A stretch of DNA of 39,693 bases from Asaia bogorensis (GTDB lineage: Bacteria > Pseudomonadota > Alphaproteobacteria > Acetobacterales > Acetobacteraceae). The position numbers and the translations under genes are program-made. Shown in pieces: positions 7,497 through 37,498 of this stretch (its first letter is position 1; the number at the start of each line of letters is the position of its first letter). A model generated the notes under the pieces. That model was not told the origin of the DNA and searched no databases. It was given only the letters and a program-made list of their open reading frames with translations. The stretch is from the NCBI GenBank assembly GCA_945897825.1, contig CAMDGX010000041.1:1-39693 (forward strand), given 5' to 3'.

Positions 7497-7514
7497 CTGT
7501 CACGCCAGTGTCTT
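7497..7514 (+). promoter_or_regulatory. Pho-box-like site upstream of the second oligopeptide-type importer
   Basis: Two 7-bp units, CTGTCAC (7497-7503) and GTGTCTT (7508-7514), are spaced exactly 11 bp apart. This matches the layout of the Escherichia coli PhoB site, two CTGTCAT-like repeats separated by 4 bp. The site ends 64 bases before the GTG at 7579. It matters because it places an oligopeptide-type transporter under likely phosphate control. Only two units are convincing here, so it is a moderate match. Confidence 0.5.
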
Positions 7515-7578
7515 GCCCCCGTGCTGTTTGCCGCCGCGCCGCCGCGTCATCGTCGCGCCCGACCGCCAAGGGGTGCCC

Positions 7579-8595
7579 GTGCCACTCGATCTCAATCCCC
7601 CGTCCGTCGCATCGCCCCGCGTCGCCGGAAGCACCGATGCGCTGCTCGCCGTCAGCGCGCTGCGCGTGGGCATCGACGGGCCGCTCGGCCATGTCGTGCC
7701 GGTCGATGGCGTGGACCTCGCCATCGGCGCCGGCCGCACACTGTGCCTGGTCGGCGAATCCGGCTGCGGCAAAAGCCTCACCTGCTTCGCCATCACCGGC
7801 CTGCTGCCGCCCGGCGGGCGCATCCTCTCAGGCTCGGTCCGCCTCGACGGCCGCGAGATCGCCGGCCTGCCGCAGCACGACCTGGTCCGCCTGCGCGGCC
7901 GCCAGGTGGCGATGGTCTACCAGGACCCGCACGCGGCCCTGAACCCGGTGATGACCATCGGCGCCCAGATCGCCGAAAGCCTGACCCTGCACGGCCATCA
8001 CCGTGACGCCGCCTGGGTCGAGGCCCGCCGCCTGCTCGACCGCGTCGGCATGCCCGCCGCCGGCCAGCGCCTGCGCGACTATCCGCACCAGCTCTCCGGC
8101 GGCATGAACCAGCGCGCCGTCATCGCCATGGCGCTGGCCTGCCGCCCCCGCCTGCTGATCGCCGACGAACCCACCACGGCGCTGGACGTCACCATCCAGG
8201 CGCAGATCCTCGCTTTGCTGCGCGAGGTGCAGGCCGAGCTCGGCATGGCGCTGCTGCTGGTCACCCACGACCTCGGCGTGGTGGCCGAGATGGCCGACGA
8301 TGTGGCGGTGATGTACGCCGGCCGCGTGGTGGAACAGGGCGACGCCGCCGCGCTGTTCGCCGCCCCCGCCCATCCCTACACCGCCGGCCTGCTCGCCTGC
8401 CTGCCGCGCATCTCCGGCCGCACCGCGCTGCACGCCATCGAAGGCACCGTCCCCAGCCTGGCCAACCTGCCGCCCGGCTGCGCCTTCGCCCCGCGCTGCC
8501 ACGCCGCCACCGCGCGCTGCACCGAAGCCCGACCCAACCCCCACACCCTGTCCGACGGGCGCCGCGTCGCCTGCCACCACCCGCTCGCGGCATGA
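7579..8595 (+). CDS. Oligopeptide-type ABC transporter ATP-binding protein, DppD type
   Basis: This 338-residue ATPase energises uptake through the permeases at 9575-11358. It has Walker A GESGCGKS (about 59-66), signature LSGGMNQR (172-179), Walker B LLIADE (192-197), H-loop His230 and the C-terminal oligopeptide/dipeptide region with spaced cysteines (CAFAPRC, ARC) found in DppD/OppD proteins. I chose the GTG at 7579 because AAGGGG lies 5 bases upstream and because the Pho-box-like site would otherwise fall inside the coding region; an ATG at 7486 in the same frame is the alternative. It is the first gene of a six-gene plus-strand operon and overlaps the next gene by ATGA at 8592-8595. Confidence 0.9.
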
Positions 8596-9569
8596 CCGGA
8601 CCGACGCCGCTGCTTGAAGCCGAGGCGCTCGGCCGCAGCTTCCCCGTGCGCCGCCACCTCCCGTGGCAGCCCCGCCGCCACCTTCGCGCCGTCACCGGCG
8701 TCGACCTCACCCTGGCCGCCGGCGAAACCCTCGGCCTCGTCGGCGAATCCGGTTCCGGCAAGTCCACCCTCGGCCGCATGGTCGCCGGCATCCTGCCGCC
8801 CAGCGAAGGCCAGGTGCGCTTCGCCGGCCACCCCCTCGCCGACCCGCGCGACACCCGGGCGCGCCGCGCCCAGGCCCGCCGCCTGCAACTGGTGTTCCAG
8901 GACGCGCTCGGCGCGCTCAACCCCCGCCTGACCATCGGCCACCAGGTGGCCGAGGTGCTCGACATCCACGCCATCGCCGCCCCCGCCGACCGCCCCGCCC
9001 ACGCCATCGCCGCCCTCGCCCAGGTCGGGCTGTCCTCGGAGCTGTTCCACCGCTACCCGCACGAGATCAGTGGCGGCCAGCGCCAGCGCGTGGTGATCGC
9101 CCGCGCGCTCGCCACCGGGCCCGACCTGCTGGTCTGCGACGAACCGGTCTCCGCACTCGACGTCTCGGTCCAGGCCCAGGTGGTTCAGGTGCTGCGCGCC
9201 CTGCAGCGCGAACGCGCCATCGCCTACCTGTTCATCTCCCACGACCTGCGCGTCGTCCGCCAGGTCTGCGACCGCATCGCGGTGATGTATCTCGGCCGCC
9301 TCGTCGAGGAAGCGCCCGCCGAGGCGCTGTTCGCCACCCCGCGCCACCCCTACACCCAGGCGCTGATCGCCGCCGTGCCGGTGGACGACCCCCGCCACCG
9401 CCGCACGCGCACCCTGCTGGCCGGCGAACCGCCCAGCCCGATCGCCCCGCCGCCCGGCTGCGCCTTCCACCCGCGCTGCGCCCTGGTCGAGCCCCGCTGC
9501 CGCACCGAGGCACCAAGCCCGCGCACCGTGGCACCGGGCCACCGCGTCGCCTGCCACGTGGCGGCCTGA
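8592..9569 (+). CDS. Oligopeptide-type ABC transporter ATP-binding protein, DppF type
   Basis: This 325-residue ATPase is the partner of the DppD-type subunit just upstream. It has Walker [10 protein letters not shown] (about 51-59), signature ISGGQRQR (159-166), Walker B LLVCDE, an SHDLRVV H-loop and the C-terminal cysteine-bearing oligopeptide region ([14 protein letters not shown]). Length and motif order fit DppF/OppF. Its ATG overlaps the preceding stop by four bases, so the two halves are probably made in equal amounts. The permease gene follows after 5 bases. Confidence 0.92.
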
Positions 9570-9574
9570 CCGCG

Positions 9575-10498
9575 ATGCTCGTCCTCCTCCTGCTCAAAAC
9601 CGGCCGCGCCCTGCTCACGGTGCTGCTCTGCGTCACCTTCGTCTTCGTCGTGCTGCGCCTGTCCGGCGACCCAGCCGAAACCCTGCTGCCCGACAACACG
9701 CCGCCGGCCACGGTCGACGAATACCGCGCCCGCTGGGGCCTCGACCGGCCGTTGCCGGAGCAATACGTGCTCTACCTCGCCGCCGTCGCCCGCGGCGATT
9801 TCGGCCGCTCCTTCGGCGACAACCGCGACGCGCTGGAGGTGGTGCTGGAACGCGTGCCGGCCACCCTGCTGCTCGGCGGCGCCACCTTCCTGCTCGCACT
9901 CGCCATCGGCATCCCGCTCGGCATCCTCGCCGCCATCCGCCGCAACACCGCCGTCGACCGCGCGGTGATGGGCTTCGCCGTATTCGGCTTCTCCACGCCC
10001 AATTTCTTCCTCGGCATCCTGCTGATCCTGCTGTTCACCATGCAGCTGCGCTGGCTGCCCTCCTCCGGCAGCGAGACCTGGCAGCACATGGTGATGCCCG
10101 TCTTCACCCTCGGCACCGCCGCGGCCGGCACGCTGGCGCGCTTCACCCGCACCGCGATGCTCGAAGTGATGGGCCAGCCCTTCCTGCGCACCGCGCGCGG
10201 CAAGGGCGCCACCGAGGCGATCGCCATCCGCCGCCACGCCTTGCCCAACGCCGCCATCCCCGTCGTCACGGTGGTCGGCTTCCAGCTTGGCGGCCTGATC
10301 GGCGGCGCGCTCGTCACCGAGACGGTGTTCGCCTGGCCCGGCGTCGGCCGGTTGCTGGTCTCGGCGGTCTCGGGGCGGGACCTCGCGGTGGTGCAGGCCA
10401 TCGTCCTGCTGGTCGCCGCCACCATGGTCACCGCCAACTACCTGGTCGACCTCGCCTACGGCCTGCTCGACCCGCGCATCCGCGACGCAAGAAGATGA
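9575..10498 (+). CDS. Oligopeptide-type ABC transporter permease, DppB type
   Basis: This 307-residue membrane protein has the DppB pattern: an N-terminal helix leading to VLRLSGDPAETLLPDNTPP, the segment YRARWGLDRPLPEQYVLYL, about five more helices and the coupling region TARGKGATEAIAIRRHALPNA. It forms the membrane pore with the DppC-type protein whose ATG overlaps its stop (10495-10498). The ATG at 9575 lies 5 bases after the ATPase stop. It is more like standard DppB than the minus-strand permease at 2348-3262, so the two importers are separate lineages rather than a recent duplication. Confidence 0.93.
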   Translation: MLVLLLLKTGRALLTVLLCVTFVFVVLRLSGDPAETLLPDNTPPATVDEYRARWGLDRPLPEQYVLYLAAVARGDFGRSFGDNRDALEVVLERVPATLLLGGATFLLALAIGIPLGILAAIRRNTAVDRAVMGFAVFGFSTPNFFLGILLILLFTMQLRWLPSSGSETWQHMVMPVFTLGTAAAGTLARFTRTAMLEVMGQPFLRTARGKGATEAIAIRRHALPNAAIPVVTVVGFQLGGLIGGALVTETVFAWPGVGRLLVSAVSGRDLAVVQAIVLLVAATMVTANYLVDLAYGLLDPRIRDARR

Positions 10499-11358
10499 GC
10501 GCCACGACTTTCCCCACCGGCCGCCGCCGCGCCCCCATCCCGCCGGCGATCCTGCTTGCCATCGGCTGGATCGCGCTGATGGTGCTGGTCGCCATCCTCG
10601 CCGACCTGATCGCCCCCACCCACTACGCCACCCAGAACCTGCGCGCGCGCCTCCAGCCGCCGGTGTTCTGGGGCGGCACCTGGGCCTATCCGCTCGGCAC
10701 CGACGCGATCGGCCGCGACATGCTCTCCCGCCTGATCTACGGCATCCGCTTCTCGATCATGATCGCCGTCATCGGCACTCTGATCGGCGCCGTGCTCGGC
10801 ACCCTGCTGGGCATCCTCGCCGCCTGGCGCCGCGGCCTCGTCGAGGAGGCGATCATGATGCTGGTCGATGTGCAGGCCGCCCTCCCCTTCGTCATCCTGG
10901 CGCTGGCCGTGCTCGCCTTCTTCGGCAACTCCTTCGTCCTGTTCGTCATCATCGTCGGCCTCGACGGCTGGGAACGCTACGCCCGGCTCGCCCGCGGCCT
11001 CGTGCTGTCGGCGCAGGAAAGCGGCTACGCGGTCGCCATCCGCACCCTCAGCGCCGGCCCGCTGCGCACCTATGGCGGCCACATCCTGCCCAACATCGCC
11101 AGCGCCCTGGTCGTGCAGATGACGCTGAACTTCCCCGGCACCATCCTGCTGGAAACCTCGCTCTCCTTCCTCGGCCTCGGCATCCAACCCCCACTTACCA
11201 GCCTCGGCCTCCTGCTCGGCAGCGGCCGTGCGTTGCTGCTGAACGCCTGGTGGATCGCCGTCCTGCCCGGCGTGGTGATCTTCCTGACCACCCTGTCCAT
11301 GAGCCTGTTCGGCGACTGGCTGCGCGACCGCCTCGACCCCACCCTGGCCGACCACTGA
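10495..11358 (+). CDS. Oligopeptide-type ABC transporter permease, DppC type
   Basis: This 287-residue permease carries the DppC mark PLGTDAIGRDMLSRLIYGIR after its first helix, further membrane segments and the coupling-loop region around AQESGYAVAIRTLSAGPLR with GGHILPNIAS. It completes the second importer (two ATPases, two permeases) but no binding protein lies on this strand; the nearest candidates are divergently encoded at 4117-7319. The next gene, a TIM-barrel protein, starts 11 bases after its stop, which ties metabolism of the ligand to its uptake. Confidence 0.93.
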   Translation: MSATTFPTGRRRAPIPPAILLAIGWIALMVLVAILADLIAPTHYATQNLRARLQPPVFWGGTWAYPLGTDAIGRDMLSRLIYGIRFSIMIAVIGTLIGAVLGTLLGILAAWRRGLVEEAIMMLVDVQAALPFVILALAVLAFFGNSFVLFVIIVGLDGWERYARLARGLVLSAQESGYAVAIRTLSAGPLRTYGGHILPNIASALVVQMTLNFPGTILLETSLSFLGLGIQPPLTSLGLLLGSGRALLLNAWWIAVLPGVVIFLTTLSMSLFGDWLRDRLDPTLADH

Positions 11359-11369
11359 GGAACCCATCC

Positions 11370-12308
11370 ATGATCCAGACCCAAGCCACCCACCCGAAGG
11401 TCGCCGGCCATGGCGCCGCCGCCGGCGGCAACTTCGCCACGCTGGACCGCAATCTCGCCCGCCTCGTCGCCGCCGGCTGCACCCACGCCGAACTCTCCGC
11501 CACCGCCCTGTTCGTCACCATCGCCGGCCAGGACAACGCCCCCCGCGTCGCCGCCCTCGCCGAGATCTGCGCCCGCCACGCGCTGCGCTATTCCGTCCAC
11601 GCGCCCATCGCCATCAACCTCATGGACGAAACCCATCTCGACCTGCACCGCGCGGTGCTCGCCAGCTCCCTGCGCTTCGCCGCCCGCATCGGCGCCCGCG
11701 CCGTCGTGATCCATCCTGGCCGCGTCCACCCGCAGGCCGACCTCGCTGCCCGAACCCGCCTGCTTTCCGTGGAGCGCGACGCCGTGCTGCGCGCCGCCGA
11801 CCAGGCCGGGGCAGGGGGCCAGATGATCGCCATGGAGAACCTCAACCCCAACCGCAACATGATGGCCGGCACCATGACCAGCTACGCGCTCGACCCGCGC
11901 GCCCTGGCCGACCAGATCGCCGCCATCGCCCACCCCGCCGTCTGCGGCACGCTCGATTTCGGCCATGGCTGGCTCGCCGCCGGCCGCCTCGGCTTCGACT
12001 ACGCAGCCGCCATCCGCGCCTTCGCCCCCGTCGTCGGCCACCTGCACGTCACCGACAATTGCGGCGTGCCGATCACCTATGTCGACGCCACCGACGAGGA
12101 ACACGTGGCCTACGGGATGGGCGACCTGCATCTGCCGATCGGCTGGGGCAGCGTCCCCTACGACACCCTGCTCGCGGACTTGCCCATCCGCCCCGGCTGT
12201 GCCGCCATCCTCGAACTCGCCAGCCGCCACGAAACCGAGCTGGAGTCCACCCTCGCCCGCGTCGCCGGCCTCGCCGCCCGGCTGAACGCCACCTCCCCCC
12301 AAGGCTGA
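11370..12308 (+). CDS. Sugar phosphate isomerase/epimerase-like TIM-barrel protein
   Basis: This 312-residue protein looks like the xylose-isomerase-like TIM-barrel superfamily (AP endonuclease 2 type fold), which includes isomerases and epimerases for sugars and polyols. Putative metal-site residues are Glu156 (AMENLNPN), Asp196 and His199 (TLDFGHGW), His226 (HLHVTDN) and Glu282 (ILELASRHE), with His115 (VIHPGRVHP) nearby. There is no signal peptide, so it should be cytoplasmic. The ATG at 11370 has GAGGA about 8 bases upstream. Lying between a transporter and a phosphodiesterase, it probably handles the organic part of the imported compound, but the reaction cannot be named. Confidence 0.8.
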   Translation: MIQTQATHPKVAGHGAAAGGNFATLDRNLARLVAAGCTHAELSATALFVTIAGQDNAPRVAALAEICARHALRYSVHAPIAINLMDETHLDLHRAVLASSLRFAARIGARAVVIHPGRVHPQADLAARTRLLSVERDAVLRAADQAGAGGQMIAMENLNPNRNMMAGTMTSYALDPRALADQIAAIAHPAVCGTLDFGHGWLAAGRLGFDYAAAIRAFAPVVGHLHVTDNCGVPITYVDATDEEHVAYGMGDLHLPIGWGSVPYDTLLADLPIRPGCAAILELASRHETELESTLARVAGLAARLNATSPQG

Positions 12309-12320
12309 AGGAAAACCGCC

Positions 12321-13562
12321 ATGCGCCGCGCCGTTCTCGTCGTGCTCGACGGTCTCCGCCGCGACTTCGTCACCGCCGGGCTCACCCCCCGCCTGCACGA
12401 CTTCGCCGCCCGGGCGCAGCGCTTCGGCGCGCACCGCTCGGTCTTCCCCTCGGCCACCCGCGTCGTGTCCTCCTCGCTCGCCACCGGCTGCTACCCTAAC
12501 CGCCACGGCATGCAGGGCAACTCGTTCGCCCTGATGGAAGCAGGCGCGCTGGTCGCCCACGACGCCGGCCTGCCCGACTTCCTGCAGCACAAGCGCGAAG
12601 TCACCGGCGCCTCCCTGGCCATGCCCACCATGGCCCAGCGCCTGGCACCGCATGGCGGCGCCTGGGTGTTCAGCAACGTCTCCCCCGGCGCCGCCTACGC
12701 CCACGACCCCGACGGCTGGGGCCACGTCTACCACCGCGCCGGCTCCTTCGGCCCCGGCCGCGTTCCGGTGGCCGACCCGCTGCAGGTCTCGCTCGACGCC
12801 GCCGGCGACCGCGCCATGACCCAGCGCTTCGTCGCCGAGGTCCTCCCCCGCAAGCCCGCCCTCGCGGTGTTGTGGCTGGGCGAGCCCGACCACATCCAGC
12901 ACGAGGCCGGCGTCGGCCACCCCGACATGCTGCACGTCCTCGCCGAGGCCGACCGCAACGCCGGCATGGTCATCGACGCCATCGGCGACGACCCGGAAAT
13001 CCTCCTGCTGCTCGCCTCCGACCACGGCCACCAGACCGTCACCGAAGTGATCGACATCGATGCCGCCCTGGTCGCGGCCGGCCTGAAGGACACACGCGAC
13101 AGCGGCGACGTCGTCACCGTCTCGAACGGTACCTCCGTGCTCGTCTACCTCCACCCCAGCCAGGTCGCGCGCCGCGCCGCACTGGGGGCGTTCCTGCGCG
13201 CCCAGCCCTGGGCCGGCGAGGTGCTGGAAGGCGACAGCCTGGCCGCTGTCGGCCAGTCCCACGCCAACGCGCTGGCCTATGCCGTGGCCATGCGCTGCAC
13301 CGATGCACCGAACGCCCACGGCTTCCCGGGCACCGCCTTCGCCGCCCTGCCGCGCGCCGGCAAGCCGGACCGCCTCGGCTGCGGCCAGCATGGCGGCCTC
13401 GGCACCTATGAGCAGATGCCCTTCCTGCTCGCCGCCGGCCCCGGCTTCGCCCCCGGCGCCACCAGCACCGCGCCAACCAGCGCGGTCGACATCGCCCCCA
13501 CCGTGCTGGCCCATCTCGGCCTCCCCGGCCATGGCATGGACGGCCGCCCGCTCCAGTCCTGA
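12321..13562 (+). CDS. Alkaline phosphatase superfamily phosphodiesterase (nucleotide pyrophosphatase type)
   Basis: This 413-residue protein belongs to the type I phosphodiesterase/nucleotide pyrophosphatase branch of the alkaline phosphatase superfamily, two-zinc enzymes that cleave phosphodiesters and sometimes phosphonates. The full set of expected residues can be read: Asp10 (VVLDGLRRD), nucleophile Thr46 (FPSATRVV), Asp190 and His194 (GEPDHIQHEAG), Asp234-His235 (ASDHGH) and His357 (GCGQHGG). The YPNRHG motif after the nucleophile is also present. It has no signal peptide, so unlike most relatives it should act in the cytoplasm, after import. It starts 12 bases after the TIM-barrel gene and ends the operon, with a hairpin at 13574. 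The natural substrate is unknown; phosphonoacetate hydrolase is a related activity and cannot be excluded. Confidence 0.85.
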   Translation: MRRAVLVVLDGLRRDFVTAGLTPRLHDFAARAQRFGAHRSVFPSATRVVSSSLATGCYPNRHGMQGNSFALMEAGALVAHDAGLPDFLQHKREVTGASLAMPTMAQRLAPHGGAWVFSNVSPGAAYAHDPDGWGHVYHRAGSFGPGRVPVADPLQVSLDAAGDRAMTQRFVAEVLPRKPALAVLWLGEPDHIQHEAGVGHPDMLHVLAEADRNAGMVIDAIGDDPEILLLLASDHGHQTVTEVIDIDAALVAAGLKDTRDSGDVVTVSNGTSVLVYLHPSQVARRAALGAFLRAQPWAGEVLEGDSLAAVGQSHANALAYAVAMRCTDAPNAHGFPGTAFAALPRAGKPDRLGCGQHGGLGTYEQMPFLLAAGPGFAPGATSTAPTSAVDIAPTVLAHLGLPGHGMDGRPLQS

Positions 13563-13593: not shown

Positions 13594-13606
13594 GACAATC
13601 ATCGAT

Positions 13607-13635
13607 CTGTCACACCCCTCACATCACGACGTCAT
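13607..13635 (+). promoter_or_regulatory. Three-unit Pho-box-like array upstream of the first ugp-like operon
   Basis: Units CTGTCAC (13607-13613), CTCACAT (13618-13624) and ACGTCAT (13629-13635) follow each other in strict 11-bp register, the spacing of PhoB sites. Against CTGTCAT they match 6, 5 and 5 of 7 positions. The array ends 44 bases before the GTG start of the ATPase at 13680, which fits activation of a promoter just downstream. Confidence 0.6.
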
Positions 13636-13679: not shown

Positions 13680-14819
13680 GTGGCCGGAATCACCATCGAG
13701 GGAGCCACGCGCCGTTTCGGCACCGTCACGGCGCTGGACGGCGTCTCGCTCCAGGTCGCCGCCGGCGAGTTCGTCGCCCTCGTCGGCCCCTCCGGCTGCG
13801 GCAAGACCACCCTGATGCGCATCGTCGCCGGCATCGAAACCGCCGATGCCGGAACCATCGTCATCAACGACCGCGACGTCACCCGCCTGCGCGCCGCCGA
13901 ACGCAACGTCGCCATGGTGTTCCAGTCCTACGCGCTCTACCCCCACCTCACTGCGCGCCAGAACATCGCCGTGCCGCTCTCGATGAAGCGGCTGTCCGCG
14001 GCCCAGCGCCTGCCGCTGTTCGGCCGCTTCTGGCCCGGCGCGCAGGACGCCCATCGCGGCATCGCCGCCGACGTGGCCAAGGTTGCCGAATCGCTCGGCC
14101 TCGCCGCCCTGCTCGACCGCCGCCCCGGCCAGCTCTCCGGCGGCCAGCGCCAGCGCGTCGCCCTCGCCCGCGCCATCGTCCGTCGCCCCGCCGCCTTCCT
14201 GATGGACGAACCGCTCTCCAACCTCGACGCCGCCCTGCGCGTGCAAACAAGGCGCGAGATCGTCGACATCCACCGCCAGAGCGGTGCGGCCACCCTCTAC
14301 GTCACCCACGACCAGGCCGAGGCACTCACCATGGCCGACCGCGTCGCGGTGATGCAGGCCGGCCAGATCCTCCAGGTCGGCACGCCCGAGGAGATCTACG
14401 CCGACCCCGCCGACCTGCGCGTCGCCACCTTCATCGGCAGCCCGCGCATCAACACCTTCCCGGCCGAAGCCGGCCCCGACGGCCTGGTGCGCATCGGGGC
14501 CACACCGATCGGCCTGCACGCCGCGCCGGGCCGCTTCACCTTCGCGATCCGCCCGGAGGATTGCCGCATCGCCGCCGCCGGCATCCCCGTCCAGGCCCAG
14601 GGTGCCGAATTCCTCGGCGAAAGCCTCCTGCTGCACGCCCACCACGCGCCAAGCGACAGTGCCGCGATCCTCCGCCTCGCCCCGGACGCGCCGCGCCCAC
14701 GCCCCGGGGAAGCCCTGCACATCGCCTTCGACCCCTCCCGCGCCCTGCTGTTCGACGCCGCCGGCCGCCGCCTGTCCCGCACCGCCATCGCCCAGGTGCC
14801 GGAGCACGCCCTTGTCTGA
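13680..14819 (+). CDS. ugpC: ABC transporter ATP-binding protein, UgpC/MalK type
   Basis: This 379-residue ATPase drives the importer encoded by the next four genes. Walker A GPSGCGKT lies at about 36-43, signature LSGGQRQR at 152-159, Walker B AFLMDE and the H-loop THDQAEAL follow, and a C-terminal TOBE-like regulatory domain begins near residue 240. The distance from Walker A to signature is 18 residues longer than in the paralogue at 29064-30152, caused by an insertion around residues 110-128 (LPLFGRFWPGAQDAHRG) in the helical subdomain. The GTG at 13680 has GGAG 9 bases upstream; a TTG two codons earlier is too close to that site. It follows a Pho-box-like array, which supports a glycerol-3-phosphate or glycerophosphodiester role, but sugar transport cannot be excluded. 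Confidence 0.88.
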   Translation: MAGITIEGATRRFGTVTALDGVSLQVAAGEFVALVGPSGCGKTTLMRIVAGIETADAGTIVINDRDVTRLRAAERNVAMVFQSYALYPHLTARQNIAVPLSMKRLSAAQRLPLFGRFWPGAQDAHRGIAADVAKVAESLGLAALLDRRPGQLSGGQRQRVALARAIVRRPAAFLMDEPLSNLDAALRVQTRREIVDIHRQSGAATLYVTHDQAEALTMADRVAVMQAGQILQVGTPEEIYADPADLRVATFIGSPRINTFPAEAGPDGLVRIGATPIGLHAAPGRFTFAIRPEDCRIAAAGIPVQAQGAEFLGESLLLHAHHAPSDSAAILRLAPDAPRPRPGEALHIAFDPSRALLFDAAGRRLSRTAIAQVPEHALV

Positions 14820-16555: not shown

Positions 16556-16580
16556 CCCCGAGCCAAAGGAACTCCCGCCC

Positions 16581-17852: not shown

Positions 17853-17877
17853 CCGCGCCCACTCCCGGAGACGAAGC

Positions 17878-19152: not shown

Positions 19153-19157
19153 ACGAC

Positions 19158-26440: not shown

Positions 26441-26448
26441 CGTCTCAA

Positions 26449-27735: not shown

Positions 27736-27757
27736 GGGGATGCTCCTGGGGTGCGGA

Positions 27758-29041: not shown

Positions 29042-29063
29042 GCGGGGTCTCCCTGGAGGATCG

Positions 29064-30261: not shown

Positions 30262-30302
30262 GTGTCACCGAATTGTCGCGGAAACGGTCGATCAAGTGTC
30301 AC
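30262..30302 (+). promoter_or_regulatory. Pho-box-like sites upstream of phnDCE
   Basis: GTGTCAC (30262-30268) and TTGTCGC (30273-30279) form one box with 11-bp spacing. CGGTCGA (30285-30291) and GTGTCAC (30296-30302) form a second with the same spacing; the two boxes are offset by 12 bp. Three of the four units contain an intact TGTC core. The sites lie about 100-140 bases before the phnD ATG at 30402. Confidence 0.6.
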
Positions 30303-30401: not shown

Positions 30402-31283
30402 ATGCTGTTGTCCCGTCGCCCGGCCATTGCCGCGGCCTTCGCCATGACCCTGGCTGCGGCATCGCGCGCCCAGGCGCAGGCGCAGGACCTGAAGCTTGCC
30501 GTCACCGACGTCGTCGGGCTGGAAAACCTCCAGCGCGAATACGCGCCGTTCCAGAAGCTGCTGTCGGACAAGGCCGGTATCCGGTTCGAGCTCTTCCCCG
30601 TCCCCAACCGCACCGCCGCGGTCGAGGCGCTGAATGCCAGGAAGGTGGACCTCGTCCTGACCGGGCCGGCCGAATACGTGGTGTTCAAGAAGCGCACCAA
30701 CGCCAAGCTGGTCGTCGGCCTCGCGCGCAACGAGTATTTCGGCACCATCGTCACCCTCGCCGGCGCCGGCATCGACAGCGTCCAGGACCTCAAGGGCCGC
30801 AAGGTGGCCTTCGGCGATGTCGGCTCCACCTCGCGCCATCTCGCGCCGATGCAACTCCTGGCCGATCTCGGCCTCGACCCGCGCAAGGACATCCAGGCCC
30901 TGCACATCAACCGCAATGTCGGTGTCGAGGCGATGCGCCGCGGCGACGTGGCGGCGATCGGCGTCAACCGCTCCGACATGGCCGGCCTGCAGCGCCGCTT
31001 TCCCGACGCGGTGTTCAAGGTCATCGCCCGCGGCCGCGACCTGCCCAACGACATGATCCTGGCCGGCGCCCATGTTCCGGACGACACGGTGGCGAAGCTG
31101 CGCGCCGTGTTCGCCGGGAACTCCGATGCCCTAATCGCCGCCATCCTGCTCGGCCCGGACGAGAACCAGAAATTCCAGGGCATGCGCTTCGTCCCGGGCA
31201 TCACCGACCGCGACTACAACTACGTCCGCACGATGTACGCCACGATCGGCCAGCCGCAGTTCGCCGATTTCGTGGGCAACTAG
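30402..31283 (+). CDS. phnD: Phosphonate/phosphate-type periplasmic binding protein, PhnD family
   Basis: This 293-residue protein has a signal peptide (about residues 1-27, cut after the AQAQA region) and the PhnD-type body: LKLAVTDVVGLENLQREYAPFQKLLS, VDLVLTGPAEYVVF, the LKGRKVAFGDVGSTSRHL motif and a late VPDDTVAKLRAVF. The GSTSRH/S motif contacts the phosphonate group in this family. It is the first gene of phnDCE and has GGAG about 7 bases before the ATG. The alternative longer frame upstream has no signal sequence. Family members bind phosphonates, phosphite or phosphate, so the exact ligand is open. Confidence 0.88.
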   Translation: MLLSRRPAIAAAFAMTLAAASRAQAQAQDLKLAVTDVVGLENLQREYAPFQKLLSDKAGIRFELFPVPNRTAAVEALNARKVDLVLTGPAEYVVFKKRTNAKLVVGLARNEYFGTIVTLAGAGIDSVQDLKGRKVAFGDVGSTSRHLAPMQLLADLGLDPRKDIQALHINRNVGVEAMRRGDVAAIGVNRSDMAGLQRRFPDAVFKVIARGRDLPNDMILAGAHVPDDTVAKLRAVFAGNSDALIAAILLGPDENQKFQGMRFVPGITDRDYNYVRTMYATIGQPQFADFVGN

Positions 31284-31286
31284 AGG

Positions 31287-32051
31287 ATGGATGCACTGCC
31301 CGCCACCATGGCGGGTATCGATCTCGCCGTCGGCGGCGTGGCCAAGAGCTTCGGCACCACCCAGGTGCTCGGCGGCGTCTCCTTCGCCGTGCCCGCCGGC
31401 CAGGCCGTGGCGCTGATCGGCGCCAACGGCGCCGGCAAGTCCACCCTGCTGCGCTGTTGCCTGCGCCTGATCGAACCCGACTCGGGCACGGTCCGCCTGC
31501 TCGGCCGCGACGTCCGCGCGCTCGACGCCGCCGGCCTGCGCGGATTGCGCACCGAGATCGGCTTCGTGTTCCAGAAGCACAACCTCGTCGGCCGCCTTTC
31601 CGCCCTGAGCAACGTGCTGCATGGCGCGCTTGGCCGCGCCCCGCTCGGCCGTGCCTGGTTCCAGTCCTTCGCACCTGCCGCCCTGCGCGCCGAGGCGATG
31701 GAATGCCTCGCCCGCGTCGGCCTGGACGCCATCGCCGCCCGCCGCGCCGATCGCCTGTCAGGCGGCCAGTCCCAGCGCGTCGCCATCGCCCGCGCGCTGA
31801 TGCAGCGGCCGCGCATGATCTTCGCCGACGAGCCGGTCGCCAGCCTCGACCCCGCTGCCGGGGAGGAAGTGATGGCGCTGTTCCTCGACCTCATCCGCCG
31901 CCAGGGCCTGACCCTGCTGTTCACCTCGCACGACCTCGCCCACGCCATCGCCTTCGCCGACCGCGTCATCGCGCTGCGCGGCGGCGCCATCGTGCTCGAC
32001 GCGCCGGCCGCGGGGCTGACGGTGGCCGGGCTGCGGACGCTCTATGACTGA
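31287..32051 (+). CDS. phnC: Phosphonate-type ABC transporter ATP-binding protein, PhnC family
   Basis: This 254-residue ATPase has Walker A GANGAGKST (about 45-53), VFQKHNLVGRLSALSNVLHGALGR (a hallmark stretch of PhnC), signature LSGGQSQR (157-164), Walker B MIFADE and an SHDLAHA H-loop. The PhnC-type Q-loop context makes the assignment firm. I give the ATG at 31287, 3 bases after the phnD stop; an internal ATG at 31308 is possible since the first has its AGAGG directly adjacent. It overlaps phnE by 8 bases. Confidence 0.9.
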   Translation: MDALPATMAGIDLAVGGVAKSFGTTQVLGGVSFAVPAGQAVALIGANGAGKSTLLRCCLRLIEPDSGTVRLLGRDVRALDAAGLRGLRTEIGFVFQKHNLVGRLSALSNVLHGALGRAPLGRAWFQSFAPAALRAEAMECLARVGLDAIAARRADRLSGGQSQRVAIARALMQRPRMIFADEPVASLDPAAGEEVMALFLDLIRRQGLTLLFTSHDLAHAIAFADRVIALRGGAIVLDAPAAGLTVAGLRTLYD

Positions 32052-32835
32052 CACACCCCGCCCGCCGCCGCGTTTCGAGCAACCGGGCCTGCTGGCGTTT
32101 GCCGCCTATCTCGCGGTGGTCGTCTTCTTCGTGGTGGCGCTGTCGGGCACCCAGGCTTCGCTCGGCGACCTCGCCTCCGGCCTGCCCCAGATGGCGCGCC
32201 TGGTCGGCGAGATGCTGCCGCCCTCCACCGCCCGGCTCGGCCCGGTCGCCTGGGCGCTGCTCGAAACCTTCCAGATGGCCTTTGTCGGCACGGCCATCGG
32301 CGTGCTGCTCAGCGTTCCGCTTGCCGTGCTGGCCACGCCCCATCTCTCGCCGCACCCGGCGATCTACCACGCCGCGCGCACCCTCATCGCCTTCTTCCGC
32401 ACCGTGCCGGACCTCGTCTGGGCGCTGCTGTTCGTGGTCTCGGTCGGCCTCGGCCCCTTCGCCGGCACGCTGGCGATCATCGTCGACAAGCTCGGCTTCT
32501 GCGGCCGCTTCTTCGCCGAGGCGATGGAGGAGTCCGAGCGCGGTCCGCAGGAAGCGCTGGCAGCCATCGGTGCGCGCCGCAGCGCCATCGTGGCCTGCGC
32601 CGTGCTGCCTGCCGCCATGCCGTCCTTCGTCGCCACCTCGCTGTTCAGCCTGGAGAAAGCCACCCGCTCTTCGGTCGTGCTCGGGCTGGTCGGCGCCGGC
32701 GGCATCGGCATCGAGCTGAAGGTGGCCATGGACCTGTTCAGCTACGACGAGGCGGCCACCATCATCCTGGCAATCTTCGCCCTCGTCCTGCTGGTCGAAC
32801 GCGCCAGCGCCTGGCTGCGGGCGCGCATGCTCTAG
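32044..32835 (+). CDS. phnE: Phosphonate-type ABC transporter permease, PhnE family
   Basis: This 263-residue inner-membrane protein has about six helices and the PhnE signatures ETFQMAFVGTAIGVLLSVPLAVLA, FFRTVPDLVWALLFV and LPAAMPSFVATSLFSLEKATRSSVVLGLVGAGGIG. Only one PhnE is encoded, so the pore should be a homodimer. Its TAG stop at 32833-32835 overlaps the TAG stop of the opposite-strand HD-oxygenase gene at 32832-32834, both using the palindrome CTAG. No catabolic gene follows on this strand. Confidence 0.9.
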   Translation: MTDTPRPPPRFEQPGLLAFAAYLAVVVFFVVALSGTQASLGDLASGLPQMARLVGEMLPPSTARLGPVAWALLETFQMAFVGTAIGVLLSVPLAVLATPHLSPHPAIYHAARTLIAFFRTVPDLVWALLFVVSVGLGPFAGTLAIIVDKLGFCGRFFAEAMEESERGPQEALAAIGARRSAIVACAVLPAAMPSFVATSLFSLEKATRSSVVLGLVGAGGIGIELKVAMDLFSYDEAATIILAIFALVLLVERASAWLRARML

Positions 32836-33401
32836 GCTCCCGCGCGCCGCCCCAGGCAGCGCTCCACCGCCGGCATGAAATGCGACACCGGCGGCGTCTC
32901 CAGCCCCTTCACCTTGGCCTGCTCGTCATAGCGCCGCAGCTGCACCGCATCCTGGCAGAACGGCACCGCCTCGAACGCCGCCACCTCCTCGGCCGACATC
33001 GGCCCGCCCTGCAACGCCAGGCTCTTCACGCTATCCTCGGACAGCTTGGCGAAGTAGTCGCCCTCCACCGCGCAAAGATACCGCTTCGCCGCGACATGCA
33101 GCCGCACCGGCGTGGTCACCTCCGGCCCGAAATGGTGCTCGAGCCAGGCATGCCCCAGCTCCTCGTGCCGGTCATCGATCCCCGCGTCGGCCGGGTTCTC
33201 GCCGAGGTCATGCACCATGTGGCCGATATCGTGCAGCAGCGCCGCGACGACCAGGGCATCGCCCTTGTCCTGCCGCTCCGCCAGCCACGCGGCCTGCAAC
33301 GCATGCTGCTGCTGGTTGATCAGGCTCAGGCCATAGCGGCCGCTGGCCTTCTGCTCCAGCAGGCGCCGGATTTCGGCCAGGATGTCGGGTGATTCGCTCA
33401 T
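32832..33401 (-). CDS. HD-domain oxygenase, PhnZ-like, phosphonate degradation
   Basis: This 189-residue protein belongs to the mixed-valent diiron HD oxygenases (PhnZ, TmpB), which cleave the C-P bond of 1-hydroxy-phosphonates. The metal ligands of PhnZ can be lined up: His33, His57-Asp58 (LLHDIGH), His79, His102 (HVAAKRYL) and Asp159, with Lys106 and Tyr23 also kept. The block YF-x-LS-x-x-S to QGGPM is shared with PhnZ. The position of PhnZ Glu27, which helps shape the substrate site, is Ser26 here, so substrate preference may differ from 2-amino-1-hydroxyethylphosphonate. The partner hydroxylase (PhnY or TmpA) is not in the window. It lies 57 bases after the fabF paralogue, and I use the ATG at 33401 rather than a TTG at 33416. 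Confidence 0.85.
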   Translation of the reverse strand: MSESPDILAEIRRLLEQKASGRYGLSLINQQQHALQAAWLAERQDKGDALVVAALLHDIGHMVHDLGENPADAGIDDRHEELGHAWLEHHFGPEVTTPVRLHVAAKRYLCAVEGDYFAKLSEDSVKSLALQGGPMSAEEVAAFEAVPFCQDAVQLRRYDEQAKVKGLETPPVSHFMPAVERCLGRRAGA

Positions 33402-33458
33402 GGGAGTCCGTTCCAATCGTCCAGCGCGGCCAGCCGCCCGCCCGCCAGCATAGTCGCC

Positions 33459-34670
33459 TCACGCCGCACGGAACACCAGGCTGGCATTGGTGCCGCCGAA
33501 GCCGAAGCTGTTCGACATCGCCACCCGCACCCGCCGCTCCTGCGCACTGTGCGCCACGCGGTCGATCACCGTCTCGCGGCTCGGCGAGTCGAGGTTCAGG
33601 GTTGGCGGCACCACGCCGTCGCGCATCGCCAGCACCGAGAAGATCGCCTCCACCGCCCCCGCCGCGCCAAGCAGGTGCCCCGTGGCCGACTTGGTAGAGG
33701 ACATCGCCAACTGCCGCGCCGCCGTGCCGAACAGCCGCTCCACGGCGGCCAGCTCGATGTCGTCGCCCAGCGGCGTGGAGGTGCCGTGGGCATTCACATA
33801 CTGCACCGCCTCCGCCGGCAGCCCCGCGCGGCGCAGCGCGTTGCGCATCGCCCGCCACGCCCCGTCGCCGCTCTCGCTGGGCGAGGTGATGTGCCAGGCA
33901 TCGCCGGACAGGCCGTAGCCAACCAGCTCGGCATGGATGCGCGCCCCGCGCGCCCGGGCGTGGTCGAACGATTCCAGCACCACCATGCCGGCCCCCTCGC
34001 CCATCACGAAGCCGTCGCGGTCGCGGTCCCAGGGGCGGGAGGCGCGCAGCGGAGTGTCGTTGAAGCCGGTGGACATGGCCCGCGCCGCCGCGAACCCGGC
34101 CATGCCAAGCTCGTTCACCGCCGCCTCGGTCCCGCCCGCCAGCATCACCTCCGCATCCCCCGTCGCGACCAGCCGCGCGGCATCGCCGATGGCGTGGGCG
34201 CCGGACGAGCACGCGGTGGAAACCGCGCGGCGCGGCCCGAGCAGGGCGAAGCGGTGGGCGAGGTTGGTGGCAAGCTGGTGGATCATGCCGCGGACGATGA
34301 ACGGATCCTTGGCCTCGCCGAGCCGGCCCGCCCCCTCGGCCAGGATCTCCAGCCCGCCGCAGCCGGACCCGATGCTCACCCCGGCCAGCGCCTGCGCCTC
34401 GGGGTCGTCGGCCTGCCACCCCGCGTCCTGGAACGCCTCCGCGGCCGCGAGTTCGGCCAGCCGCGCCGCGCGTTCCGACCGGGTCGGCGCCGGCGGCACC
34501 CCCGTGGCGGCGAAGCGCACCTGCCCGGCCACGCGGCAGGGCAGGTCGGCGTTGAAGTTGGTGATCGTGCGGATGCCCGAGCGCCCGTTCAGCAGGCGGC
34601 GCCAGACGGTCTCAAGCCCATGGCCCAGCGGGCAGACAACCCCCATGCCGGTGATCACGACGCGCCGCAT
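33459..34670 (-). CDS. fabF: Beta-ketoacyl-ACP synthase II, FabF paralogue
   Basis: This 403-residue condensing enzyme extends acyl chains on acyl carrier protein. The catalytic triad is intact: Cys154 (STACSSGAHA), His295 (VNAHGTSTPLGD) and His332 (KSATGHLLGAAG), with Lys327 and the glycine-rich end FGFGGTNASLVF. It starts MRRVVITGMGVVCPLG, typical of FabF. The usual genome copy sits beside acpP or fabG; here it is in a lipid-remodelling cluster, 97 bases after pmtA, and so is probably a paralogue for special acyl chains (for example longer or hydroxylated chains). That role is inference. Confidence 0.9.
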   Translation of the reverse strand: MRRVVITGMGVVCPLGHGLETVWRRLLNGRSGIRTITNFNADLPCRVAGQVRFAATGVPPAPTRSERAARLAELAAAEAFQDAGWQADDPEAQALAGVSIGSGCGGLEILAEGAGRLGEAKDPFIVRGMIHQLATNLAHRFALLGPRRAVSTACSSGAHAIGDAARLVATGDAEVMLAGGTEAAVNELGMAGFAAARAMSTGFNDTPLRASRPWDRDRDGFVMGEGAGMVVLESFDHARARGARIHAELVGYGLSGDAWHITSPSESGDGAWRAMRNALRRAGLPAEAVQYVNAHGTSTPLGDDIELAAVERLFGTAARQLAMSSTKSATGHLLGAAGAVEAIFSVLAMRDGVVPPTLNLDSPSRETVIDRVAHSAQERRVRVAMSNSFGFGGTNASLVFRAA

Positions 34671-34766
34671 CCGATGGCGTTCCTTTACGAGGTCTACGGA
34701 CAGAACGGCATTTCGCGAGTCGGCGGGATGAAGCTTGCATGAAATGCGGCGGCCGGCCGCTTCCGC

Positions 34767-35417
34767 TCACCCCGCCCCGTGCGCAGCCCCGTCCCCCGCC
34801 TCGGCCGGGGCCGCATGGCGCAGCCGGTAGTGCCACACGCTGGCCGGCGGGAAGTTCCGCGGCGTCCAGGCCAGCCGCCGCGCCGTCAGACCCAGCTTGC
34901 TGGGCGAAAGCGGCGAGGTGATGCAGTAGCTGTAGTGCAGGAACCCGCAGCCCGGCGCGACCGCCGCCATCGCACCGATGAACTGCAACTGCTGCTCGCG
35001 CGACAACAGCACCAACGGCACGCCGCAGATCACCGCGCCGATCCGCGCATCGAGATCGTGCAGCAGCGCCGGCAGGTCCCGCGCATCGCCCTGCACCACG
35101 CGCGCGCCCGGCAGCACCTGCCGCAGGTGCTCGGCCATGTCGGGCACGATCTCCACCACCACCAGCCGCCGCGCCGGCAGCCCGGCATCGAGCAGGGCGC
35201 GCGAGATGACGCCGGTGCCCGCGCCCAGCTCCAGCACCATCCCGTCCGGCGTCGCGGCATGCTTCACCAGCAGCCGGCACAGCGACGGCGACGACGGCAC
35301 GATGGAACCCATCTGCAACGGGTTGGCCAGCCAGCGGCGGAAGAACAGCCCCGCATTGGCAATCGCGGTTGGCACCTGTGGCGCCAGGGCGCGCTCGGTT
35401 CCGGCCTGTTGGGACAT
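34767..35417 (-). CDS. pmtA: Phospholipid N-methyltransferase, PmtA type
   Basis: This 216-residue SAM-dependent methyltransferase matches the Sinorhizobium/Rhodobacter PmtA family, which turns phosphatidylethanolamine into phosphatidylcholine. It has the membrane-interaction start FFRRWLANPLQMGSIVPSSP, motif I ELGAGTGVIS (63-72), an acidic VVEIVPDMAEHL motif II, then GDARDL and a GVPLV motif IV. It begins 12 bases after the glycosyltransferase stop, so it should be cotranscribed with plcP and agt. A PC-making gene in a phospholipid-degrading operon is unusual; it may supply the substrate of PlcP or another acceptor. Some members of this class methylate ornithine lipids or other amines. Confidence 0.85.
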   Translation of the reverse strand: MSQQAGTERALAPQVPTAIANAGLFFRRWLANPLQMGSIVPSSPSLCRLLVKHAATPDGMVLELGAGTGVISRALLDAGLPARRLVVVEIVPDMAEHLRQVLPGARVVQGDARDLPALLHDLDARIGAVICGVPLVLLSREQQLQFIGAMAAVAPGCGFLHYSYCITSPLSPSKLGLTARRLAWTPRNFPPASVWHYRLRHAAPAEAGDGAAHGAG

Positions 35418-35429: not shown

Positions 35430-36461
35430 TCAAGGACGATGCCCGCCAAGGGGCACCAGATGGGTCAGGAAGGTTTCCGCGCAGGCCCGCCAACTGAAAC
35501 GTTCGGCATGGGCGCGGCAGGCGGCCCGGTCGGCATCCAGCGCCGCCAGGGCCGCCCGGCGAAGGTCGGGCCCCACGGCCCCGACGCGCCCCGCCGCACC
35601 GGCCAGGATGTCGCGCGGCCCGGTGACGTCGAAGGCGGCCACCGGCGTGCCGCAGGCCAGCGCCTCCAGCACCACCAGCCCGAACGTGTCGGTCAGGCTC
35701 GGGAACACGAACACGTCGCTGCCGGCATAGGCGGACGCGAGCTCCGCGCCGAACAGCGGGCCGGCGAAGTGCACGTCCGGATACCGGCGCCGCAGCGCGG
35801 CCAGCTGCGGCCCGGCGCCCACCACCACCTTGGACCCCGGCAGATCGAGGTCGAGGAACGCCGCGATGTTCTTCTCCACCGCCACCCGCCCGACATAGGC
35901 GAACACCGGCCGCGGCAGCCCCCAGTCCCGCGCCGGCGCCGGGCGGAACAGCGCGAGGTCGACCCCGCGCGACCAGTCGCGCAGCGCCCGGAACCCGCGC
36001 TGCGCCAGCTCCGCGCGCAGGCTGGCGGTCGCCACCATCATGCCCTGCCCGGCATTGTGGAACCGGCGCATCCAGGCATACAGCCAGCCGGCCGGCACCC
36101 CGATGCGCGCGTTGACGTATTCGGGAAACCGCGTGTGGAACGCCGTGGTGAAGGCGCAGCCGCGCCGCAGCGCCCAGGCCCGCGCCGCCATCCCCAGCGA
36201 CCCCTCGGTGGCGATGTGCAGCGCCTCCGGGGCGAACGCCTCGATCATCCGGTTCAGCCGCCGCGCCGGCAGCAGGCTCAGCCGGATGTCGGGATAAGTC
36301 GGGCAGGGGATGGTGACGAACCGGTCCGGCCCCACGACCTCCACCACATGCCCCATCGCGCGCAACTCGGCCGATACGGCCTGCAACGTCCGCACCACGC
36401 CATTGACCTGCGGCTGCCAAGCATCGGACACGATCAGGATGCGCGCGGGCAAAGGACCCAT
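35430..36461 (-). CDS. agt: GT4 glycosyltransferase, Agt-like, glycolipid synthesis
   Basis: This 343-residue retaining glycosyltransferase has the GT-B fold motifs of family GT4: an N-terminal ILIVSDAWQPQVNGVVRTL, donor-site VGRVAVEKNIAAFL and the DTFGLVVLEA version of the E-x7-E motif (Asp at the first position). It is a close companion of plcP, 73 bases downstream. In marine and soil alphaproteobacteria the plcP-agt pair replaces phospholipids with glycolipids when phosphate is short: PlcP frees diacylglycerol and Agt adds glucose or glucuronic acid. The ATG at 36461 is preferred over a TTG at 36467. Sugar donor cannot be read from sequence. Confidence 0.82.
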   Translation of the reverse strand: MGPLPARILIVSDAWQPQVNGVVRTLQAVSAELRAMGHVVEVVGPDRFVTIPCPTYPDIRLSLLPARRLNRMIEAFAPEALHIATEGSLGMAARAWALRRGCAFTTAFHTRFPEYVNARIGVPAGWLYAWMRRFHNAGQGMMVATASLRAELAQRGFRALRDWSRGVDLALFRPAPARDWGLPRPVFAYVGRVAVEKNIAAFLDLDLPGSKVVVGAGPQLAALRRRYPDVHFAGPLFGAELASAYAGSDVFVFPSLTDTFGLVVLEALACGTPVAAFDVTGPRDILAGAAGRVGAVGPDLRRAALAALDADRAACRAHAERFSWRACAETFLTHLVPLGGHRP

Positions 36462-36534
36462 CCGCAACAGCCGATGCCAGTGGCCGGACTGATCGGCGCC
36501 ATATGAAGGGGAGAGGGCCAGGTGGGCCGCATCG

Positions 36535-37359
36535 TCAGGCGGGATGAGCCACCTCCGCCCCGTGCGGCATGGCGAAGGACAGCCGGTTCAGCGCCGCCCA
36601 GTCCAGTAGTTCCAGGCGCCCGTCATGATGCTCCACCAGCGCGGTGCAGCTTTCCACCCAGTCGCCGTCGTTCACGTACAGCACGCCGTCGACCATGCGC
36701 ATCTCGGCATGGTGGATATGGCCGCACACCACCCCGTTCAGCCCGCGCCGCCGCGCCTCGCCGGCCAGCGCGGTCTCGTAGCGGTCGATCGCCTTGACCG
36801 CGCCCTTCACCTGCCGCTTGAGCCAGGCCGACAGCGACCAGTAGGGATAGCCCAGCCGTCGGCGTGCCGAGTTGAACCAGCGGTTGACCACCAGTGCCGC
36901 GGTATAGGCACCGTCGCCCAGCAGCGCGATCACCTTGGCGTAGCGCACCACGCTGTCGAACTCGTCGCCATGGATGATCAGCAGCCGCCGCCCGTCCGCC
37001 GTCTCGTGTACCGCCTCGCTGCGCAGGCGGATGCCGCACACGTCCAGCCCCATCGGCAGCCAGGTGCGGAACATCTCGTCGTGGTTGCCCGGGATGTAGG
37101 TGACCTCGGTGCCGTTGCGCGCCTTGCGCAGGATCAGCTTCAGCACCTCGTCGTGCGCGGCATCCCAGTACCAGGACTTGCGAAGGCGCCAGCCGTCGAT
37201 GATGTCGCCGACGAGGTAGAGCCGCTCGCTGCTGGTGCGGCGAAGGAAATCGGCCAGGAAATCGCTGCGGCAGCCCCGCGTGCCGAGATGCAGGTCCGAG
37301 ATGAAGATGGTGCGATAGTGCGCCGTCGACGTGGCTGGCTCCGGCAACAAGGCATTCAT
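36535..37359 (-). CDS. plcP: PlcP-type phospholipase C, metallophosphoesterase
   Basis: This 274-residue calcineurin-like enzyme matches PlcP of Sinorhizobium meliloti, which hydrolyses phosphatidylcholine to diacylglycerol and phosphocholine under phosphate limitation. Motifs are Asp22-x-His24 (ISDLHLGTRG), Asp52 (VGDIIDGW), Asn92-His93 (IPGNHDE), a later IIHGDEFD and CGHIHHA. The segment LRKSWYWDAAHDEVLK and the shared GTRG are typical for PlcP and distinguish it from LpxH, to which the family is often misassigned. No signal peptide, so it acts from the cytoplasmic side of the inner membrane. The ATG at 37359 (MNALLPEP) is chosen; the open frame upstream is not conserved-looking. It starts the five-gene minus-strand cluster, with a divergent Pho-box-like array upstream. 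Confidence 0.88.
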   Translation of the reverse strand: MNALLPEPATSTAHYRTIFISDLHLGTRGCRSDFLADFLRRTSSERLYLVGDIIDGWRLRKSWYWDAAHDEVLKLILRKARNGTEVTYIPGNHDEMFRTWLPMGLDVCGIRLRSEAVHETADGRRLLIIHGDEFDSVVRYAKVIALLGDGAYTAALVVNRWFNSARRRLGYPYWSLSAWLKRQVKGAVKAIDRYETALAGEARRRGLNGVVCGHIHHAEMRMVDGVLYVNDGDWVESCTALVEHHDGRLELLDWAALNRLSFAMPHGAEVAHPA

Positions 37360-37415
37360 GCGCACAAAATCCAATGTGTGCGGGCAACACACACAGACGC
37401 TCCGTATTCGTGCAC

Positions 37416-37433
37416 GTGAATATTCGATGAATC
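37416..37433 (-). promoter_or_regulatory. Weak two-unit Pho-box-like site upstream of plcP
   Basis: On the minus strand GATTCAT (37433-37427) and TATTCAC (37422-37416) are 11 bp apart. Each matches only 3-4 of 7 positions of CTGTCAT. It lies 57-74 bases before the plcP start, an expected distance, but the match is weak and the region is AT-rich. Confidence 0.3.
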
Positions 37434-37458
37434 GAGACGGCGGCGAAACCGGCGGCAA

Positions 37459-37498
37459 ATGTCACCAGAATGCCCGCGATCATTCATTGGTATGTCAT
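37459..37498 (+). promoter_or_regulatory. Four-unit Pho-box-like array between plcP and the DAG kinase gene
   Basis: Units ATGTCAC (37459-37465), ATGCCCG (37470-37476), CATTCAT (37481-37487) and ATGTCAT (37492-37498) are in strict 11-bp register. The outer two contain TGTCA, the third matches CTGTCAT at 5 of 7, the second is weak. The array ends 66 bases before the ATG at 37565 and 100-139 bases upstream of plcP on the other side, so it may serve both. Confidence 0.55.

Follow-up and report, generated by a model that had tools for sequence, protein, structure and literature searches.

Do the CTGTCAT-like repeats that lie upstream of the operons of a 40-kb contig from Asaia bogorensis mark a set of genes that PhoB would turn on together when phosphate runs out? 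The window, by which we mean the whole 39,693 bp stretch analysed (C41:1-39693), comes from a 4.93-Mb assembly (G000; 208 contigs, 96.7% complete), of which it makes up 0.8%, and its guanine plus cytosine (GC) content is 71%. A sequence-only reading had drawn attention to five repeat arrays in it and proposed that they bind PhoB. The arrays are very probably PhoB operators (Pho boxes) of a phosphorus island concerned with organic phosphorus, phosphonates and glycolipid remodelling. PhoB is predicted to bind them and low phosphate to induce the operons; most likely the 40-kb stretch would be switched on as one unit at phosphate exhaustion.

Pho-box-like arrays of the window

The Pho box, as given in the accessible portions of PMC3131613 and PMC4415409, is a pair of 7-nt CTGTCAT units separated by 4 nt. 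All five sequences named by the sequence-only reading are present where it placed them, but the exact 11-bp steps that it reported hold for the arrays at 7497, 13607, 30176 and 37459 and fail at 30262-30302. The two arrays that it began at 7497 and 13607 really start at 7475 and 13596 and have four units each, and it had overlooked three further boxes, facing sbp5, plcP and fabF. The eight boxes are as follows:

7389-7417, minus strand: pair of Pho-box-like units 22 nt apart, the unit between them weak, oriented towards the sbp5/Dpp operon (ATG 7319); 11.9 bits for three units
7475-7514, plus strand: four-unit Pho-box array facing the oppDF-dppBC-TIM-barrel-phosphodiesterase operon (oppD GTG at 7573 or 7579); 21.6 bits
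13596-13635, plus strand: four-unit Pho-box array facing ugp1 (start 13680); 28.7 bits, the window's best
30176-30215, minus strand: four-unit Pho-box array facing ugp2-phnS2T2U2 (ugpC2 ATG 30152); 25.5 bits
30262-30302, plus strand: Pho-box units at steps of 11, 11 and 12, facing phnDCE (phnD ATG 30402)
34728-34745, minus strand: plcP-type Pho box facing fabF-phnHD (fabF ATG 34670); exact KTCATNNAANNTTCAY match
37416-37433, minus strand: plcP-type Pho box facing plcP (ATG 37359); exact KTCATNNAANNTTCAY match, 18.5 bits by a plcP-box matrix built from 73 regions, the six loci nearest the window being left out
37459-37498, plus strand: four-unit Pho-box array facing dagK (ATG 37565); 23.0 bits

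Each of the eight ends 23-99 nt short of its start codon, within the limit of about 140 bases originally given. Phosphorus operons do carry arrays as had been proposed, but their number was put at five, and the eight boxes serve about seven or eight transcription units. The array at 37459-37498 was rejected as the plcP operator, since it faces dagK while plcP owns the box at 37416-37433 on the minus strand. Putative -10 elements (GATACA, GATACT and GATAGG) lie 8-10 nt past three of the arrays. Homology and reading decided the gene starts given here; to recognise coding sequence, a rule based on GC content at third codon positions (GC3) was used rather than a gene finder.

Could such arrays arise by chance? 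They were scored with a matrix of the 7-nt unit trained solely outside this genome. Five congeners supplied 20 units through their pstS arrays, and loci of other relatives supplied 74 through 37 dimers facing dagK (36 of the 73 regions were dropped for want of a usable dimer at the 4-mismatch limit); an array score is that of four units at an 11-nt step. Three backgrounds served for comparison: 20 stretches of 20 kb taken from this genome (400 kb in all), reversed sequence amounting to 440 kb, and simulated DNA from a Markov model fitted to the intergenic parts of the window. The window's four top four-unit matches are those at 13596-13635, 30176-30215, 37459-37498 and 7475-7514, all of them intergenic, and no match of at least 21.6 bits was found in the 400 kb of own genome or the 440 kb of reversed sequence. 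Markov sequence contained three such matches per 10 Mb, which gives 0.0022 expected against four found in 3,618 intergenic bases, both strands counted (this length is somewhat too large, since part of a permease gene, at 2886-3258, was counted in by mistake). Chance was rejected on these figures for the array set as a whole, and in the comparison with background that had been suggested as a check (window, 400 kb of own genome and simulated intergenic DNA), four of the five arrays first described pass unaided.

Exact matches to KTCATNNAANNTTCAY occur only twice in the whole genome, before plcP and before fabF. The two-unit consensus CTGTCATN4CTGTCAT with at most three mismatches is found at 99 places genome-wide, five of them in the window, versus 30 for the reversed pattern; with a control this high, single two-unit hits at three mismatches are weak evidence.

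Recurrence of the boxes in relatives and in the rest of the genome

Do the same boxes stand before the same genes in related bacteria? Eight congeners were searched for orthologous regions, and footprints were judged by alignment and eye. A four-unit array lies in the pstS region of all five congeners examined (for example, TTGTCATGATAGTGTCATCAAACTGAAATGGCCGAGTCGC in G006), and the window array at 30176-30215 matches the unit order of the G006 and G004 pstS arrays, with CTGAAAT as third unit, GTCGC in the fourth, and CGACC after it. The phnD array is present in all five congeners that have an orthologous phnD, where its steps of 11, 11 and 12 are kept and the sequence further upstream differs from that of the window. 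Between oppD and sbp5, the GTCAC-NNNA-NCGTCAT-like pair (window units 7497-7514) is found in four of four orthologous intergenic regions (L170-L173), and by eye both of the sbp5-facing units 22 nt apart are there as well; neither pair is present in L174, a paralogue 42-43% identical. All four units of the ugp1 array are retained before the 94%-identical operon of G003 (23.7 bits). This array was not seen downstream of the phosphodiesterase in eight loci (L120-L127, of which L121 offers only 40 bases), because ugp1 is not adjacent there. At 57 nt upstream of fabF, G001, G002, G004, G006 and G008 all carry the fabF box, as TGTCACGCAAGCTTCACC or in a closely similar form; in G003 it is weak.

A threshold scan of the congener loci flagged the phnD array in only one of five phnD loci (G008), left the dagK array unflagged in G004:C95, and flagged nothing in G006:C55, G004:C42, G003:C94 or G002:C253. 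A further strong four-unit array (23.5-26.8 bits) lies beyond fabF in L259, L257 and L258 (G001:C16, G006:C43 and G008:C305); for 400 nt, the stretch that it faces contains no homologue of the window.

For the region between plcP and dagK, 80 loci were fetched. Two-unit matches (best match with at most three mismatches) lie upstream of plcP in 28 of the 80, versus 4 of 80 in the reversed regions. An unseeded motif search of 73 of these regions (the six loci nearest the window were left out and one was dropped for Ns) recovered GTCATgnAAgnTTCAC facing plcP at 20.9-22.3 bits in 10 of 12 random starts. Reversed regions were rejected as the control for this motif since the reversed motif itself was recovered from them (18.6 bits); letter-shuffled regions were used instead and gave motifs of at most 8.7 bits (six starts). 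Masking GTCATgnAAgnTTCAC brought out the two-unit Pho form TGTCATn6GTCAT at 13.3 bits. One motif ranked above it, at 14.1 bits; it is of another kind, and we read it as the conserved start of the dagK coding region.

Of the 80 plcP loci, 69 have a dagK homologue on the opposite strand, and the dagK array has a similar place and orientation in relatives; 46 of the 69 have a three-unit array, although some of these regions trained the matrix. The window's phnS2 sits behind ugp2 and has no box of its own, while its homologues have a strong three-unit array upstream in nine of nine other loci, versus 10 of 180 random segments of those loci. The proposal of a coordinated phosphate regulon thus gains support from the same kind of four-unit array before pstS in five congeners and from the return of the boxes before orthologous operons.

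Outside the window the picture is mixed, and we claim no clean genome-wide regulon. The top four-unit array in the 0.69 Mb of own genome scored (33.1 bits; L216, G000:C47, 4799-4838) stands before the gene of a PehA-type phosphoester hydrolase that scores 895.5 bits against a cut-off of 900. This array lies behind a family-5 binding protein, within another cluster of dipeptide-type importer genes. An array at C6:13523 precedes phnC-phnD and one on C4 precedes a PhnD-type binding protein. A site on C8 precedes a protein with no family match, and the site at C6:10303 is between SpoIIE-type and M20-type genes, both on the other strand. Further sites lie on C82, C121 and C55, with a tandem site on C31, and L204 has one more four-unit match, at 19.1 bits.

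Genes of the island and comparable systems

Which genes would these boxes control? Names were given from Pfam/NCBIfam profile searches of the window proteins. These back the earlier names Ugp-like, aminoethylphosphonate, PhnDCE, PlcP and diacylglycerol kinase, that of PlcP through family and neighbourhood. The genes are:

762-7319, minus strand: sbp5/Dpp operon, dipeptide-type ATP-binding cassette (ABC) importer with family-5 binding proteins at 5745-7319 and 4117-5805 (Pfam/NCBIfam)
3259-4107 and a second ending at 2348, minus strand: permeases of the Dpp operon, with a double ATPase at 762-2885 (Pfam/NCBIfam)
7573-13562, plus strand: Opp-type ABC importer (oppD, oppF, two permeases) and a TIM-barrel protein to 12308 (Pfam)
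12321-13562, plus strand: type I phosphodiesterase (Pfam)
13680-19982, plus strand: Ugp-like importer ugpC-A-E with two UgpB-like binding proteins (ugp1), all under the Ugp equivalog cut-offs
19158-19982, plus strand: calcineurin-type metallophosphoesterase that ends the ugp1 operon (profile search)
20640-30152, minus strand: second Ugp-like importer (ugpC2, two UgpB-like proteins, two permeases), then phnS2T2U2 (profile search)
23450-24565, minus strand: phnS2, 2-aminoethylphosphonate importer (TIGR03261, over cut-off)
22342-23448, minus strand: phnT2, 2-aminoethylphosphonate importer (TIGR03265, 453.7 versus cut-off 457.7)
20640-22349, minus strand: phnU2, 2-aminoethylphosphonate importer (TIGR03262, over cut-off)
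30402-32835, plus strand: phnD, phnC and phnE, phosphonate-type importer (PhnE over the TIGR01097 cut-off)
32832-33416, minus strand: HD-domain phosphonate oxygenase-like protein, phnHD (TIGR03276, 222.5 over 214.6)
33459-34670, minus strand: fabF, ketosynthase II (TIGR03150, over cut-off)
34767-35417, minus strand: PmtA-like methyltransferase (profile search)
35430-36467, minus strand: Agt-like glycosyltransferase of family GT4 (family and neighbourhood)
36535-37359, minus strand: plcP (metallophosphoesterase family and neighbourhood)
37565-38461, plus strand: dagK, YegS-type diacylglycerol kinase (profile search)
38505-39224, minus strand: phoB-like response regulator (PhoB model, 249.5 bits)

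About two thirds of the 33 listed window proteins have a plausible phosphorus role. PhnD-like and PhnC-like proteins fall short of their cut-offs (110.4 versus 112.05 for TIGR01098, and 248 versus 266.1), and the HD-domain protein scores 179.8 against the TmpB model NF049941, whose cut-off is 300; among the window proteins searched against Pfam there is no match to a 2-oxoglutarate dioxygenase (the PhnY/TmpA partner). No curated PlcP or Agt model matched a window protein in the profile searches, and PlcP is far below the cut-offs of the LpxH models (38.5 versus 134; 34 versus 190.35). The layout of a metallophosphoesterase gene followed by a GT4 gene under a Pho box is that of PlcP-Agt. In named genomes the best PlcP matches are mostly in Rhodospirillales and Acetobacteraceae metagenome assemblies, including Limobrevibacterium, Rhodopila and Roseomonas. 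At the contig end (39459-39693, plus strand) there is an open frame with weak helix-turn-helix matches that, judged by eye, may be the beginning of an IS21-type transposase.

When phosphate is short, PhoB in its phosphorylated form would occupy the 11-nt direct repeats head-to-tail and turn on jointly the importers of Ugp, dipeptide/Opp, 2-aminoethylphosphonate and PhnDCE type, together with the phosphodiesterases and the HD-type phosphonate oxygenase. The PlcP-Agt pathway, turned on with them, would strip phosphate from phospholipids and put glycolipids in place, acting with the PmtA-like methyltransferase, FabF and the diacylglycerol kinase. The substrates that the importers would carry and the PhoB that would act here we infer from sequence.

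The kind of system is already known, and the window is a new, dense example of it. The accessible parts of PMC4415409, PMC3131613 and PMC11208175 describe PhoB regulons of proteobacteria (E. coli, Sinorhizobium meliloti, Rhizobium leguminosarum and Caulobacter) in which, as here, 7-nt CTGTCAT-like units with 4-nt spacers at an 11-nt step precede phosphorus-acquisition operons. Unlike those regulons, the window packs eight boxes into about 30 kb of one contig, and the plcP/fabF box has the narrower form GTCATgnAAgnTTCAC. Likewise plcP beside a GT4 gene with a Pho box upstream is the arrangement of the plcP-agt cluster in marine bacteria (available text of PMC4796936), and the gene pair is also in Methylosinus, a methanotroph (available text of PMC9239053); unlike that cluster, the window adds a divergent diacylglycerol kinase gene with its own array, a PmtA-like methyltransferase gene, and fabF with its own Pho box. 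Phosphorus genes are similarly gathered in the flexible phosphate/phosphonate islands of marine HIMB59 Alphaproteobacteria, the longest of 18.5 kb, with PhoR-PhoB (as far as the accessible portion of PMC10734472 goes). According to the same portion those islands carry pst and phoR, both of which the window lacks. In the window, which belongs to another bacterial order, lipid-remodelling genes stand in one stretch with importers of Ugp-like, Opp-like and phosphonate type. A figure legend in that portion of PMC10734472 lists DGK, LpxH and RfaG, which may be the dagK-plcP-agt trio under other names. Our literature search found no paper combining 'Pho box' with 'Acetobacteraceae', and none combining 'fabF', 'plcP' and 'phosphate limitation'.

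Pieces of the island move within the genus. In G003 the ugp1-metallophosphoesterase genes are directly followed by phnDCE (86-98% identity), beside sbp5 and oppD, and in G008 the Dpp/Opp/phosphodiesterase block has a contig of its own. A family-5 binding protein gene (its product 36% identical to sbp5a) is present between pmtA and fabF in L256, L041 and L101 and is missing from the window. Relatives of plcP are on 32 plasmid records, 11 of them from Roseomonas and of about 360-440 kb; the single plasmid examined, p1 of Roseomonas mucosa (L287, 358 kb), has only the plcP-agt (GT) pair and not the whole island.

The island PhoB and other explanations

The window's phoB-like gene encodes a diverged, island-type PhoB paralogue, the only PhoB found in the assembly and the best match there to the PhoB model (249.5-249.9 bits; below the TIGR02154 cut-off of 296.2), the runner-up regulator scoring 193. 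In a tree it groups with the congeners' PhoB and not with five further regulators encoded by the same genome (support 82/94). Seven core PhoB proteins fall together there on short branches (support 85/95, below the tool's star), and three island PhoB proteins have longer branches whose order among themselves the tree does not settle. The window protein is 53-55% identical to core PhoB and 64-66% identical to its nearest relative, a G002 protein whose gene is also convergent with dagK. All three island proteins (window, G002:C72 and G003:C167) have Gly in place of the core Arg, which changes IRRLR to xGRxR, and the G002 and G003 genes adjoin Pho-box operons, that of G003 ending an array-ugpCAEB-metallophosphoesterase operon.

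Several observations weigh against taking the boxes for working PhoB operators of a single regulon. By the matrix alone the phnD array is weak and not significant by itself (its two in-phase units score 12.7 bits, a value reached 12 times in 400 kb of this genome, with 0.33 expected in the intergenic DNA), and the sbp5 units at 11.9 bits are not significant alone (five as good per 400 kb). No phosphorus role for the dipeptide/Opp importers is evident by sequence. Elsewhere in the genome a three-unit match of 25.4 bits on C92 precedes a protein with a phosphoenolpyruvate (PEP)-utilizer domain and the site at C43:4194 a glycosyltransferase, neither with a clear phosphorus role, and C5 has a strong three-unit match of 22.0 bits. 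Three-unit arrays are scarce at homologues of 40-71% identity (ugpC1-like 1/4, ugpC2-like 1/11, oppD-like 0/3, sbp5-like 0/1), most of which are distant. The window PhoB alone has proline for leucine (VGRPR/GRPR) and TKLF for TKPF, at sites otherwise conserved in congener core PhoB. No Pho box was found upstream of phoB in the window (scan at most 4.8 bits) or in G002. Finally, the 96.7%-complete assembly has no PhoU, no PstB over cut-off and no core PhoB.

The last points raise the strongest alternative, that the operators are real by descent and the circuit has since changed or is decaying, with Pst-PhoU-PhoB lost and the island PhoB degenerate, as its longer branch and two unusual substitutions might suggest. 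We consider this unlikely. PhoU and PstB over cut-off are each found in six of the nine genus genomes, and PstB, PhoU and core PhoB lie together in G002, G003, G004, G005 and G006. A locus of some kilobases could drop into a gap of a 208-contig assembly. In G001, where core PhoB lies at the beginning of a contig, PhoU and a PstB over cut-off are likewise missing, which makes an assembly gap a fair explanation; the locus may assemble badly. The window arrays, moreover, are intact and high-ranking, and the genome has a PhoR-like kinase (297.9 bits, cut-off 334.2). A related and rather doubtful possibility is that the island PhoB proteins form a fast-evolving subfamily, whose members share an Arg-to-Gly change of the recognition helix and move together with Pho-box operons, and that the island copy has here replaced or outlived the core Pst-PhoU-PhoB, leaving the island self-regulated and uncoupled from Pst signalling.

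The arrays might instead be operators of another regulator of the OmpR/PhoB family with similar direct repeats. Members of this family share head-to-tail repeats, and the PhoB model finds 46 matches in this genome. This is nonetheless improbable, given that a four-unit array of the same units precedes pstS in five congeners and that phosphorus genes make up the majority of those behind the arrays. The unit is, besides, the CTGTCAT of PhoB (accessible portions of PMC4415409 and PMC3131613). That the repeats are chance ones picked by eye in a GC-rich window is scarcely credible: the phnD and sbp5 units are within chance reach by the matrix, but the excess of four-unit arrays and the recurrence in congeners (phnD 5/5, oppD/sbp5 4/4, pstS 5/5) are not of that kind.

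If the boxes are the PhoB operators that they very probably are, the window shows a lineage related to Acetobacteraceae gathering uptake of organic phosphorus and phosphonates and membrane-lipid replacement under one regulator, with operators predicted base by base in this group. FabF and the HD-type oxygenase become candidates for lipid and phosphonate metabolism in phosphate starvation. The island PhoB paralogues raise a further question: can a moving regulon carry its own regulator?

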